A stretch of 64,000 nucleotides of DNA, taken from NCBI RefSeq assembly GCF_003403315.2, contig NZ_CP048407.1, positions 310,001 through 374,000 on the forward strand, read 5' to 3'. Both the position numbers and the translations under genes were made by a program. This stretch comes from Thermaerobacter sp. PB12/4term (GTDB lineage Bacteria; Bacillota; Sulfobacillia; Thermaerobacterales; Thermaerobacteraceae). Positions 25,293 to 48,394 of the stretch are shown here, one piece after another; positions within the stretch are counted from its first letter, which is position 1; every line of letters starts with the position of its first letter. Under the pieces are notes generated by a model. The model saw only the letters and a program-made list of their open reading frames with translations, made no database searches and was not told the DNA's origin.

Positions 25293-26090
25293 TCAGGAGC
25301 GCGAGGGGGTGCCGGCTCGCCCGCGCCGCTCTGCGGCATCGGAGGCATCCTCCGGCCGGGGAGGTTTCCCGGCAGCCGCCGCGGCGTACCACGCGGTGAG
25401 CCGCTCCGTCACGTGAGGGGATCCTTGAGCCTCGGCCGATTGCAAAACCAGCCGGCCGAGGTGCTCGGGATTCAGCTGCCAGCAGCCGTGCTCCAGCACC
25501 GGCCCGCCGGCCGGGCGCCGGGTCAGCACCAGGACCGGCTGTAGGGATTCCGGCCAGGCAAGGCCGGCGGCGGCCAGCGACTCGCCCAGCGACCTGGCAC
25601 CTGCCTGCAGCAAGTCGCAGGCCCGCCGGAGCTGCTTTCGGGCTGATCGTGGCCGGGCGGCGGCCGACAGATCCAGCGTACCCAAAACCCACGCCCGGTT
25701 GGAGCCCACCAGCAGGATCTCCGCACCGCCCCGCCCGGCTGGACCCCTGTGGGCCGCGGGCAGGGCCACCCGCAAGATGCCCGGTGGCAGCTGGTCCACC
25801 GCGTCCAGCAAGCGCCGCCGGCCGTCGGCCACCTGCAACAGGGTGAAGAAGCGGGCCGCCGCCAGCCCGGCCCCCACCAGGCACCAGAATCCGAACATGT
25901 CCAGGACGTTCACGCCGGTCAGCTGGCGCAAGCGGAACAGCGAACCCGCGCCCCACCCGAAGGCGAGGCACGCCGCAGCCCAGCCCCAGGGCAGCGGCGG
26001 GGGCCGGAGCGGGGTGCCGATCCAGCCTTGCTGGTTAGCGGCCCCGGTGGTGGACGTAGCCGGGCCTGCCGTGCTGGAGGAACCGCTCAT
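25293..26090 (-). CDS. Membrane protein with a possible NERD-like domain
   Basis: 265 residues from ATG 26090 behind AGGAGGTCGTGAGGGT, a very strong site. After a Ser/Thr-rich start there are two TM helices (about residues 37-55 and 62-82). The soluble part has EILLVGSNRAWVLGTLDLSA, a stretch of Arg/Ala helices, then LQPVLVLTRRP, an order that resembles a weak nuclease-related (NERD) domain where a secreted or stored 'private' sequence is flanked by such strands. I do not see the catalytic residues clearly. Function unknown; co-oriented with the cytochrome genes. Confidence 0.6.
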   Translation of the reverse strand: MSGSSSTAGPATSTTGAANQQGWIGTPLRPPPLPWGWAAACLAFGWGAGSLFRLRQLTGVNVLDMFGFWCLVGAGLAAARFFTLLQVADGRRRLLDAVDQLPPGILRVALPAAHRGPAGRGGAEILLVGSNRAWVLGTLDLSAAARPRSARKQLRRACDLLQAGARSLGESLAAAGLAWPESLQPVLVLTRRPAGGPVLEHGCWQLNPEHLGRLVLQSAEAQGSPHVTERLTAWYAAAAAGKPPRPEDASDAAERRGRAGTPSRS

Positions 26091-26247
26091 ACCCTCACGA
26101 CCTCCTGTGCGACGGGCGAAGGGTCCGCAGAGGGGGGACCCGCACAAACCATAGGGGGCACCGGCTCACGGCACCCGGTGCCCCTCCCCTGAGACGCGGC
26201 GCGATGCGGCCACCAGCTGGGCGGCCTGAAGTAGGCATGGGCGGCGG

Positions 26248-27303
26248 TCAGGAGCCACCGCCGGCGCCACCACCCTGGGAACCCGACCCGCCGCCTTGTC
26301 CTTGCCCCTGCTCACCCGTATTGCCGGCACTTTCAGCCGGGTTGGGCTCCTGGGCGGCGCGCTGGTCCACGTCGCCGAGACCCATCAAGAAGCGGGCCAG
26401 CAGGCGAATCTCCTCCTGTGACAGGGCATCCTTGTACGGCGGCATGATGCTGCGGAACTTCTCCGCTTCCTTGCGATACACCTCGGTCAGGTCCACCGGG
26501 GTGCCCTGACCATGCCACACGGAGGGCATCCGCTCCCAGGGCTCGAAGGACTGCGGGTCGGTGATCCAGCGCTCGGTGAACTCCAGGCTGGGGAGCCATT
26601 CCCCGGCGCGGGTCAGGTTGGGCCCGACCACCCCGCCGTAGCTGCCCAGGGTGTGGCACTGGATGCAGTTCATCTTGACGAAGAGTTCCTTGGCCCGCTG
26701 GTTCTCTTCGTCCGTCAGGCCCGCCGCCTTGACGTCCAGATCCTGCGCCGTCACCGGCCGGGTACGCTGCTCCTGCTGGCCGGTATCCTGGTTCTGGACG
26801 TATTCCGTCACGGTGAGGCGCGCCACCTCGGGAGCCGCGGCATGCTTGCTGGGCTCCTGCCAGTTCCCGTACATCAGGAAGGTCACCAGGTCGCGGATCT
26901 GCTGCTCGTTGAGCGGCCCGTTATCCGCGGTCGACCAAGTGGGCATCCGGGTATACGAGTGGATCTTGCCGTCCTCGATCTCCCACGTGTTGTGGTCGAA
27001 CCCCGGCCGGCCGCGAGCGATCACCTTGGTCAGGAAGTCCTGGATGGTCGCGGCCTGGATGGGCGTCTTGCCCTCGGCCCGGAACTCCTCCCGGTTCAGG
27101 GGGGGGCCGATGATGCCCTCGCCCACCGGCCCGTGGCACAGCATGCAGTTCTGGGCGTAGAGCTGGGCGCCGTGGGCGGCCTGTTCTTCCCGCGCCGCCG
27201 CCGACGCCTTGGTCATGCGCTGGCTTTCGAAGAGCCAGTACCCCTGGATGATCAGGATCAGCACCCAGAGCAGTGACAGGGCGACGACTTTGCGCTTGCT
27301 CAA
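26248..27303 (-). CDS. Membrane-anchored di-haem cytochrome c
   Basis: 351 residues from TTG 27303 behind AAAGGAG. An uncleaved N-terminal helix (residues 7-24) anchors it outside the membrane. Two c-haem sites: CMLCH (Cys53, Cys56, His57) and CIQCH (Cys213, Cys216, His217). Methionine axial ligands are plausible in YTRMPTW and SIMPPYKD. The C-terminus is a Gly/Gln/Ser-rich tail. It would accept electrons from the bc complex encoded just upstream and pass them to a terminal oxidase, not found here. Confidence 0.9.
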   Translation of the reverse strand: MSKRKVVALSLLWVLILIIQGYWLFESQRMTKASAAAREEQAAHGAQLYAQNCMLCHGPVGEGIIGPPLNREEFRAEGKTPIQAATIQDFLTKVIARGRPGFDHNTWEIEDGKIHSYTRMPTWSTADNGPLNEQQIRDLVTFLMYGNWQEPSKHAAAPEVARLTVTEYVQNQDTGQQEQRTRPVTAQDLDVKAAGLTDEENQRAKELFVKMNCIQCHTLGSYGGVVGPNLTRAGEWLPSLEFTERWITDPQSFEPWERMPSVWHGQGTPVDLTEVYRKEAEKFRSIMPPYKDALSQEEIRLLARFLMGLGDVDQRAAQEPNPAESAGNTGEQGQGQGGGSGSQGGGAGGGS

Positions 27304-27333: not shown

Positions 27334-27462
27334 TCAGTCGTCCTCGCCGGACTTCTCCAGCGGGCGTCCCGTGAACCGCTCCACGGTGTCAACCGCCACC
27401 AAGCAGAGAAAGATCACGATCATCACGGCCAGAAGTTCAACGGATTCCAGTACCTCGAACAT
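27334..27462 (-). CDS. Small single-span membrane protein in the bc-complex operon
   Basis: 42 residues from ATG 27462, preceded by GAGGAGGTTGGGACC, a strong site. MFEVLESVELLAVMIVIFLCLVAVDT forms one TM helix, followed by an acidic, soluble C-terminus ending KSGEDD. It sits 30 bases upstream of the cytochrome c gene and after the Rieske gene. I do not recognise the family. By position and size it could be a small subunit of the complex, comparable to the single-helix Pet subunits of b6f, but that is inference. Confidence 0.6.
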   Translation of the reverse strand: MFEVLESVELLAVMIVIFLCLVAVDTVERFTGRPLEKSGEDD

Positions 27463-27612
27463 GGTCCCAACCTCCTCGCCGTGGCACCCGGCCTCACCGG
27501 CCCCTGGCCCCCGTCGCAACCGGCGGGACGAAGCGGGTACGGGACGCCCTCACGCTCCGCCGGATCCGCCTCCGGACGGCCTCCCCGGGGGACGACCCCC
27601 GGGACGGCCGGA

Positions 27613-28476
27613 TTACGAGACCGGTGTCAGCTGGCTGGGGTCAAAGGCCTGGCGCTGCTGCACACGGCCGGTGTCGACCCACACGTTGCCCGCGGCATCG
27701 ATCTCGATGGGGAAGTAGTCCATAGGCCGCGGGGCAGGGCCGCCGATCTTCTCACCGACCTTGTTGAACTGCGAACCGTGGCAGGGGCAGCAGAAGCAGC
27801 CGCCCGCGTCGGGCCGTTCTTCCGGCTTCCACGGCACCGTGCAGCCCAGGTGGGTGCAGCGCCAGTACAGGGCGATGAGCCCCTGCTCCGTGTGCACCAG
27901 GTAGAACTTGCCCGCGTCCACCTTGGTGACCGACCCCACCGGGAAGTTGGACACCGGCCCGATGTTGATCTTCTGCCCGAAGAAGCCGACCTTCCGCGGC
28001 CAGAAGTAATAGGCGAAGTTCCCGGCGAACTGGCCGAGCCAGAGCAAGGCCGATCCCCAGAGGGCCCAGTGCAGGAAGTCGCGGCGCGTAACGGGCTCGT
28101 CCCGGCGGGCGGCGGCACCATGCCCACCGGCCCGGGCCGCGGGTCTGGCCGCCGCACCGGCTGCGGATCCCGGCCCCCCGGCTCCGCCACCCTTGCCCGC
28201 TCCGGCCTCCGCCTTCGCAGCTGCCGCCTTGGCTGCGGCTGCCCTGGCTGCGGCCAGCTTTTCCGGATCCACCTTGGGCCGCGCCGACGCGCCGGCGGCC
28301 TCCTGCCCCCCCTGGCCTCCCTGGCCCGCAGACGCTCCGCCCGCGGCTACGGGAGTACCCTGGGAGGTGCCGGACGCTCCGCCTGCCGGCTCGGCCTGGT
28401 CCGGGCTTCCCGCTTCAGCGCCGGTCGCCGGCTGATCCTTGCCGACTTCCGGGCTGCGCTCGCGTTCGTCGGCCAT
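27613..28476 (-). CDS. qcrA: Rieske iron-sulfur protein of the cytochrome bc complex
   Basis: 287 residues; GGAGGG precedes the ATG. Residues 1-125 are a low-complexity Ala/Gly-rich cytoplasmic extension. RRDFLHW followed by a TM helix (about 131-155) is the Tat-like anchor. The [2Fe-2S] ligands are Cys207 and His209 (CTHLGC) and Cys230 and His233 (CPCHGSQF), with the Cys212-Cys232 disulfide. It takes the first electron from quinol. The long extension is odd; Rieske proteins of Bacillus are about 170 residues. Confidence 0.94.
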
Positions 28477-28524: not shown

Positions 28525-29304
28525 TCAGTGGGGCGGTTCCAGCTGCCACGGCCACACCAGGTGCAGGCTCTCGCCGCGGAAGCCGGTGCCGATGATGGTC
28601 AAAACGAAGTACGAGGCGACGAACACCGTGAACAGCGCGATGATGGTCTCCCGGGTGTTGGCCTGGTAACGCCGGCGCACGATGACCGCCAGCACGCCCG
28701 GCACCGCCGCCATGACGATCAGCGGGATCACCACGCCGGCGATGTGCTCCACCAGCTGCGCCTGGGCGTGGATCGCCTCGGGGCTCATGAACAGGCCGAA
28801 CACCGCGGCGACCAGGCCGCGGGTGCCGATGTAGTCGACGCCCCCTACGTTGACCGCGAAGAAAGCGTCAAACAGGATCAGGCCCAGCACGATCAGCGAC
28901 GTGTACAGGAAGGAGAACTTGAAGATCCGCAAGCCTTTCTCGCCCGCGAACCACACGCCGGTATCCGAGGGGTCCGTATCGATGTAGGGGATGGCCGCGA
29001 TCAGCACCAGCACGAGCCCCGGCACGATGACGCCGGCCAGGCTGGGGTGCATGTGCAGCAGCAGCTCCTGCAGGTTGAGGAAGTACCAGGGCGCCTTGGC
29101 CGGGTTGGGCGTGTGGGACGGGTTGGCCAGCTCCAGAAGGGGCGCCTTGATCAGGATGGCCAGAAGCGACAGGCCGATGGTGTAGATCAGGGCCCCGACG
29201 AATTCGATCAGCAGCAAGTGGGGCCAGACCGTCACCTGTTCCTTGGGGTTCGGCCGCTGCGGCTCCTCGCCGGTCGCGGCCGGCGCCGGTTGTGGCTGTG
29301 CCAC
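28525..29304 (-). CDS. petD: Cytochrome bc complex subunit IV-like protein
   Basis: 259 residues from GTG 29304 behind AGGAGGGAG. NPSHTPNPAKAPWYFLNLQELL holds the PEWY-equivalent quinol-site region (here APWY) of the C-terminal half of cytochrome b. Unlike plastid subunit IV (three helices) it has about six TM segments: after the conserved part come IVPGLVLVLIAAIPYID, FSFLYTSLIVLGLILFDAFF and two more helices. No haem c motif is fused to it, unlike Bacillus QcrC; cytochrome c is separate. Confidence 0.88.
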   Translation of the reverse strand: MAQPQPAPAATGEEPQRPNPKEQVTVWPHLLLIEFVGALIYTIGLSLLAILIKAPLLELANPSHTPNPAKAPWYFLNLQELLLHMHPSLAGVIVPGLVLVLIAAIPYIDTDPSDTGVWFAGEKGLRIFKFSFLYTSLIVLGLILFDAFFAVNVGGVDYIGTRGLVAAVFGLFMSPEAIHAQAQLVEHIAGVVIPLIVMAAVPGVLAVIVRRRYQANTRETIIALFTVFVASYFVLTIIGTGFRGESLHLVWPWQLEPPH

Positions 29305-29402: not shown

Positions 29403-30173
29403 TCAGCGGGAGAAGCCGTCCTTGCGGACCCGCCAGAAGTGCATCCCCATGAACACGGCCGCCACCAGCGGCAGGGCGAAGACGTGCAGCGTGTACCACC
29501 GGATCAGGGTGTTCTGGTTGATGTCGTAGCCGCCGATCAGGAGGAACTTCAGCTTGTCGCCCACGAAGGGCGTCGCGCCGGCCATGTTGGTACCCACCGT
29601 CACCGCCCAGTAGGCCAGCTGGTCCCACGGCAGCAGGTAACCGGTGAAGCTCATCAGGAACGTCAGCACCAGCAGGATCACGCCGATGACCCAGTTGAAC
29701 TGCCGGGGCGGCTTGTAGGCGCCGGTGTAGAAAACCCGAACCATATGTAGAAACACCAGCAGCACCATGGCGTGGGCCGCCCAGCGGTGGATGTTGCGGA
29801 AGAACTGGCCGAAGGCCACGGTGGTCTCCAGGTCTTCGATGCTGAAGTAGGCCTGGGGGACCGAGGGGATGTAGTAGAACATCAGGATGACGCCGGTGAC
29901 CGTCAACAGGATGAACATGAAAAACGACGTGCCGCCGAGCCCGAAGGTGTAGCGGAACGTCAGCGCCTGCCGGGTGATCCGGCCCGGGTGCAGGTGCAGG
30001 AACAGGCTGTTCAGAACCGCCAGGCCGCGGGTGCGCCGGTCCCGCGGGTAGGGGTTCATGTACATCGACTTCCAGAGGGCGCTGTTGAAGATCCAGTCGG
30101 CAAGCCGCCCGATCAGCGACTTGCGCCCCCCGGACGCCGGCGGCTGTTGCTCCGGTGTACCAACCCGGCTCAA
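29403..30173 (-). CDS. qcrB: Cytochrome b6-type subunit of the bc complex
   Basis: 256 residues from TTG 30173 behind AAGGAGGAG. Four TM helices bind two b haems through His129, His143, His230 and His245; the 13- and 14-residue spacings between ligands are those of b6. The lumenal loop [19 protein letters not shown] is conserved. The residue matching Cys35 of b6, which covalently holds haem c(n), is Gly78, and the protein has no cysteine at all. First gene of the minus-strand cluster. Confidence 0.93.
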
Positions 30174-48300: not shown

Positions 48301-48394
48301 GGGAGCAGCTGGTGACTGGTGTCGCCCCTGGTCTTCAAAACCAGTGGGGGGCGGCGATACCGTCCCCGGTGGGTTCGATTCCCACATGCTCCCG
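48301..48394 (+). tRNA. selC: Selenocysteine tRNA (anticodon TCA)
   Basis: 94 bases ending in discriminator G, CCA not encoded. Features special to tRNA(Sec) are visible. The acceptor arm is extended (48301-48308 with 48386-48393; seven pairs, the eighth G-A). The D-stem is six pairs with a four-base loop (48311-48316, 48321-48326). The anticodon TCA at 48335-48337 lies in loop CTTCAAA. The variable arm is long, with an eight-pair stem (48347-48354, 48360-48367), and the T-stem GTGGG/CCCAC has loop TTCGATT. It decodes UGA as selenocysteine with SelA, SelB and SelD, none of which is in the window. Confidence 0.93.

Follow-up and report, generated by a model that had tools for sequence, protein, structure and literature searches.

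A conserved 42-codon gene in the cytochrome bc operon of Thermaerobacter encodes a candidate small subunit of a b6-type complex

An open reading frame of only 42 codons lies among the cytochrome bc genes of the window, by which we mean the whole 64,000-nucleotide stretch of Thermaerobacter sp. PB12/4term DNA analysed here, and a preliminary description read from the letters alone had taken its product for a possible undescribed small subunit of the bc complex. We asked whether this frame is a gene and, if it is, what its protein does beside the complex. The features concerned are as follows.

29403..30173, minus strand: cytochrome b6 (Pfam Cytochrome_B, 7.7e-48; four hydrophobic segments)
28525..29304, minus strand: subunit IV, 259 aa (Pfam Cytochrom_B_C, 3.9e-9; five hydrophobic segments)
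27613..28476, minus strand: Rieske iron-sulfur protein (Pfam Rieske, 1.2e-8)
27471..27477, minus strand: Shine-Dalgarno GAGGAGG of the small gene, assigned from the sequence, with the ATG 8 bases downstream
27334..27462, minus strand: gene of a small single-helix membrane protein (42 aa, ATG start, TGA stop included)
26248..27303, minus strand: diheme cytochrome c (Pfam Cytochrome_CBB3, 1.2e-18, in two stretches; two CxxCH motifs)

On the minus strand the order is b6, subunit IV, Rieske, small ORF and diheme cytochrome c with gaps of 98, 48, 150 and 30 bases, and the cytochrome c, which starts with TTG in the ORF list, carries an N-terminal membrane anchor. Subunit IV of the b6f complex is described as having three helices (PMC7143216). 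Downstream of the cytochrome c, ORF 25293-26147 on the minus strand is a second uncharacterised gene of the window bc operon; of 11 loci tested, 8 have a counterpart with a GSLFR-like N-terminal motif after the cytochrome c gene (L052, L054, L058, L062, L063, L064, L065 and L082), and neither the window copy nor three relatives scanned matched a Pfam model. Elsewhere the window holds a selenocysteine tRNA at 48301-48393 on the plus strand (82.2 bits).

The 42-codon ORF at 27462..27334 on the minus strand is a real gene. Its translation from ATG to TGA is MFEVLESVELLAVMIVIFLCLVAVDTVERFTGRPLEKSGEDD, in which a sequence scan finds one hydrophobic segment and AlphaFold2 models one helix at residues 6-31 with a mean pLDDT of 80.3. 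Its calculated mass is about 4714.5 Da, or 4742.5 Da in formylated form. The 42-residue single-helix protein of the preliminary description is thereby recovered, as are its very strong ribosome-binding site (GAGGAGG, 8 bases 5' of the ATG) and its placement between the Rieske and cytochrome c genes, 150 and 30 bases away. An alternative TTG start in the window frame would give 61 aa; the same open frame is just 44 codons long in two relatives (G002 and G003), so ATG/GTG is the conserved start. Among members from the genus and family the protein is 79-100% identical, and in nine pairs the gene shows dN/dS of 0.09-0.38 (dN 0.056-0.176 vs dS 0.208-1.374), the near-identical pair G000/G001 (dN 0, dS 0.033) being left out of this range. 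Relatives down to about 20-30% identity are found at the matching genomic place, and across the family the gene has about 33-80 codons. Conservation of the frame in relatives, the first of the checks named in the preliminary description, extends through the class, other Bacillota classes and Chloroflexota.

Our alignment of the small proteins has 48 rows and leaves out members found later. Two motifs are near-fixed, an N-terminal [D/E]-x-x-E-[L/V] and a C-terminal Q-[R/K]-W. The first position is E or D and the second Glu is kept in all 48, while three later-found members (G823, G851 and G872) carry Gln at the position of that Glu; at the C-terminal end of the helix Q stands in 36 rows, followed by R/K in 43 and W in 37. 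Lysine and arginine average 1.75 on the C side vs 0.19 on the N side, some N-termini being trimmed, and the C side exceeds the N side in 45 of the 48 proteins. Because these residues gather on the C side, the positive-inside rule would place the N-terminus outside. The alignment has no conserved Cys or His.

Curated libraries hold no credible counterpart of this family in Pfam, NCBIfam or the PDB, and the window protein itself matches no Pfam or NCBIfam model at E <= 1. What matches did appear we judged to be chance: NCBIfam cytochrome b559-beta with two of 19 members (best E 0.0017), five other NCBIfam models and ten Pfam models (best E 0.033) each weakly with single members, and PDB entries (best E 0.19), most of them photosystem II b559-beta matched around an FIQR end. 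Among the papers listed in searches of the open-licence literature, no title or abstract opening describes this gene or, for Bacillota or Chloroflexota, any small subunit of a bc complex.

With which genes does the small gene occur? A profile of eight small-protein members was searched against 154 genomes of the window's own class, matches being read down to E 8.8e-4 and weaker ones dropped unread except for four that were viewed (G047, G050, G040 and G030; E 0.2-0.8); one match, in G077, was an unrelated long frame. A Rieske profile finds the window type at 24 loci in 22 genomes (E <= 3.1e-53, the next match 2.6e-29). When the loci were read, 21 of the 22 genomes had a free small gene between Rieske and cytochrome c. 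The two extra loci (L132 and L133, in G046 and G146) are lone Rieske genes with no b6, subunit IV, cytochrome c or small gene in the stretches read.

In a Bacillota sample of 398 genomes, 55 gave a cytochrome b match, 14 of them of the window type, which score 337.9 bits or more where the best of the rest reaches 224. The small gene is present in 12 of these 14, and in six of the 12, which lie outside the window's class, it again sits between Rieske and cytochrome c. It is missing from G261 and G428, whose related b6 belongs to another operon layout, in which Rieske leads and is followed by b6, subunit IV, cytochrome c and a large protein resembling an oxidoreductase; subunit IV has three hydrophobic segments and 87 residues after WYF in G261 and is apparently joined to b6 in G428. 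Among the 41 genomes with other cytochrome b types only, no small-gene match was judged real, the weak matches there being assessed by match and frame length rather than one by one. Six of the 18 genomes matched in this sample (G171, G320, G446, G463, G489 and G499) were dropped as chance, as was a second match in G452; these matches, not inspected singly, were short, partial and mostly in long frames. By eye, two loci (L206 and L207) have a related Rieske-b6-IV-cytochrome c cluster followed by genes for an 874-960-residue protein and a 314-318-residue ferredoxin-like protein, which may mean that the bc complex there is coupled to a second respiratory enzyme.

A Chloroflexota locus found via its cytochrome c (L069) has the small gene just 5' of b6. 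Across the 158 genomes of its class the first profile gives the small gene in 11, all beside bc genes; in G640, on a short contig, its neighbour is cytochrome c. Window-type b6 occurs in 38 of the 158 (at least 312.4 bits, the next match 275.5), and the b6 surroundings of the 27 others, together with those of G640, G536, G261 and G428, were searched with a larger profile. The gene follows cytochrome c in 19 of the 27, bringing the total to 30 of 38. The other eight (G692, G666, G680, G682, G644, G693, G683 and G627) have a contig that breaks off without reaching the 3' end of the cytochrome c gene, so no complete operon of this set is without the small gene.

A wider Chloroflexota sample of 231 genomes gave matches in 23, from which G870, after inspection, and G879, for an internal stop, were dropped. 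The small gene is linked to bc genes in eight (G536, G827, G875, G798, G779, G849, G890 and G807). In thirteen others (G756, G763, G784, G812, G823, G826, G840, G847, G851, G868, G872, G889 and G896) there is no bc gene within, at most, 1.5 kb on either side of it. A window-type b6 lies on another contig in 12 of these 13, a one-sided count in that b6 was scored only in carriers of the small gene; in G847 this b6 is fragmentary, with subunit IV and Rieske after it, and in G823 the b6 search found none. Where the b6 operon of unlinked genomes was read (G784, G826, G851 and G868) it had no copy of the small gene. Twelve genomes of other phyla or other Chloroflexota lines gave no match, which is uninformative by itself. 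The small gene is thus shown in two phyla; all 15 named contigs carrying it in one locus set are metagenome-assembled, and many further genomes are in tens to hundreds of contigs.

Three of the eight relocated small genes whose surroundings were listed (L239, L244 and L245, in G784, G756 and G896) come after genes whose products begin alike (MFKKTEESEW, MFGKKSEESEW and VFSRKSDDQEW), and we take these products to be perhaps bactofilins. In some Chloroflexota operons the cytochrome c subunit has a single heme motif and ends in cupredoxin domains (three Cupredoxin_1 stretches in L180:4105-5718, one Copper-bind stretch in L202:5962-6903); the copper carrier of these bc complexes is built in by fusion. 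Some bc operons begin with a 614-616-residue pyridine-nucleotide oxidoreductase with Fer4 domains (L184:6040-7887, L183, L185 and L187; the Pfam assignment is from L184), and by eye similar-looking proteins of 618 and 653 residues precede Rieske in L206 and L207.

The position of the small gene shifts. It lies between Rieske and cytochrome c in the Bacillota members read, after cytochrome c in 25 of the 30 Chloroflexota-class genomes and in G875, G798, G779, G849 and G807, before b6 in G536, G827 and G890, and before the pyridine-nucleotide oxidoreductase gene that precedes b6 in G537, G624, G625 and G626, with an ATGA overlap in all four. As for subunit IV, the small-gene operons show five hydrophobic segments in 46 of the 50 subunits that the script could read (55 were given) and in 14 of 15 of a further set, and 166-202 residues after WYF in 49 of the 50, the remaining one having 117. 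The small gene goes with the five-helix subunit IV, and it accompanies one type of bc complex even where it has moved. This pairing lends support to the proposal of a possible undescribed small subunit; the spread to Chloroflexota, the shifting position and the link to the five-helix subunit IV go beyond what had been proposed.

In the 22nd genome with a window-type Rieske (G091, locus L066) a free small gene was not found, and the cytochrome c there is extended at its N-terminus by a stretch with GFVELLLIVLF...YLFHIW, possibly the small protein in fused form. The profile scores speak weakly for this possibility. With the first profile the extension alone scored 4.8 bits and its segment 6.6 bits, 19th of 1427 membrane segments; with the larger profile the segment scored 13.8 bits, second of 1229 scored, behind a true member and with the best control at 11.0, but a longer cut, set among 486 segments, scored 10.7 bits, about the same as the 10.6 of an unrelated segment. 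AlphaFold2 places helices at residues 39-67 and 79-133 of this cytochrome c. A C-terminal fusion to cytochrome c in G807 was dropped because the intervening stretch contains a run of N, and there the gene merely follows cytochrome c.

Several known small subunits invite comparison. PetG, PetL, PetM and PetN, single helices of 29-39 residues in a b6-type complex, are like the small protein in size and type of complex; PetG further shares with it an N-terminal Glu and a basic C-terminus, and we take the N-terminus of the small protein to resemble that of PetG. The b6f complex that holds these four differs in that its partner is cytochrome f and not cytochrome c, whereas the subunit IV found with the small protein has five helices. 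Kinship with PetG was looked for, and neither the model search nor the profile comparison gave anything above helix controls. The PetG model (PF02529) exceeded its cut-off in none of 61 relatives (control, 1 of 14 genomes), and a Pfam scan of 19 members at E<=1 did not bring it up for any of them. With hhalign the probabilities against PetG/L/M/N were 0.07-2.04%, compared with 0.03-1.86% when anchors of cytochrome c and Rieske served as controls; the test is weak in that the four Pet alignments hold 3-4 sequences each. The small protein may work like PetG/L/M/N; homology was not detected. In b6f these subunits are peripheral and believed to stabilise or regulate the complex (PMC9279372).

Subunit IV of the Rhodobacter sphaeroides bc1 complex is supernumerary, with a transmembrane domain across the Rieske and cytochrome c1 helices; it is labile, and the complex that retains it is threefold more active (PMC10041115). 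It has been called unique to the complex of that species and, unlike a subunit of the b6c type, belongs to a bc1 with three catalytic subunits; we liken the two from its description. Genome analysis together with mass spectrometry brought to light subunit IIa of B-type (ba3) oxidases, a 41-residue single helix first overlooked, which genomic context revealed in many bacteria as well (PMC3128077). It is a close precedent for overlooking a small-helix gene, but sits in a heme-copper oxidase and stands in for an N-terminal helix lacking in subunit II, unlike the small protein. Within Bacillota, the heliobacterial bc complex shares by its description the split b6/subunit IV and the diheme cytochrome c of the window complex, and is presented as PetABCD in the cited account, the relevant passages of which mention no small subunit (PMC7143216); none of the genomes searched for the small gene was recognised as heliobacterial.

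Tight co-occurrence, a drifting position and a conserved short helix form a pattern that suits either a subunit or an assembly factor dedicated to the complex. The small protein is probably a stoichiometric single-helix subunit of a b6c complex, a quinol:cytochrome c oxidoreductase that would comprise b6, the five-helix subunit IV, Rieske and a membrane-anchored cytochrome c together with the small subunit. As for the small subunits of b6 complexes, the protein is short with one transmembrane helix, and it accompanies b6-complex genes in 21/22, 12/14 and 30/38 genomes (8 cut off) and in 12/13 of those where it is unlinked. We favour a subunit because the protein is nearly all membrane helix and because of the precedents of ba3 IIa, Rhodobacter subunit IV and PetG/L/M/N. 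Against it stand the Glu, which is not strictly invariant, the presence of the gene in G823, where no b6 was found, and the related b6 of G261 and G428, genomes that lack the gene.

Such a subunit would have its N-terminus outside and its C-terminus inside, as the positive-inside rule predicts, and its helix would pack against the outside of the b6/IV core, where the cytochrome c anchor and subunit IV's two additional helices may be its neighbours. It may stabilise assembly or turnover, as do PetG/L/M/N in b6f or subunit IV in Rhodobacter bc1. The nearly invariant Glu is predicted to lie at the outer membrane surface, on the side of quinol oxidation; that it takes part in proton release is speculation.

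The main rival is a dedicated assembly or maturation factor that leaves before the bc enzyme matures, for example one helping the insertion of subunit IV or of the cytochrome c anchor. Such a gene can leave the operon yet still accompany the complex, as it does in the 13 genomes where it is separated, and BRAWNIN, a small-ORF peptide, is needed for complex III assembly in vertebrate mitochondria (PMC7066179). The small protein, however, is very short with nearly no soluble part, it is mostly encoded among the structural genes themselves in the genomes where it was found, and no conserved Cys or His hints at cofactor handling. We consider an assembly role unlikely, and that the protein is a subunit instead is what we infer from sequence comparison. 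A linker bridging the bc complex to a terminal oxidase or an electron carrier would fit a gene that often adjoins cytochrome c and, in G536, the one locus where oxidase neighbours were looked at, a bc operon followed by oxidase-like genes (COX1 and FixO matches); the alignment leaves almost nothing of the protein beyond the membrane on the outer side, and we think such a linker very improbable. That the ORF is a translational leader or coupling ORF for the downstream cytochrome c, its peptide having no role, is suggested by its shortness, its strong ribosome-binding site and the 30 bases to the cytochrome c start, but is scarcely credible and already largely refuted because the gene changes position, standing last after cytochrome c, first before b6 or unlinked in Chloroflexota, and its amino acids are conserved (dN/dS about 0.1-0.4; Glu in all 48 aligned members).

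Read as a subunit, the small protein may have a wider significance, and we regard it as an evenly balanced question whether it is an obligatory and undescribed component that defines a distinct complex III, with an added helical layer absent from bc1 and b6f. This complex would be common to several Bacillota classes and Chloroflexota and would combine a split b6, the five-helix subunit IV and a membrane-anchored cytochrome c; the layer would consist of the small-subunit helix and the two extra helices of subunit IV, with the Glu near the quinol-oxidation side. Complex III is among the best studied respiratory enzymes, and here a candidate subunit from two phyla is without a model in the curated family libraries searched, having been missed probably because its gene is so short. 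The small protein marks a structurally different b6c type and offers a definite target mass for purification and cryo-EM; counts of bc subunits in bacteria may be underestimates where they rely on genome annotation.
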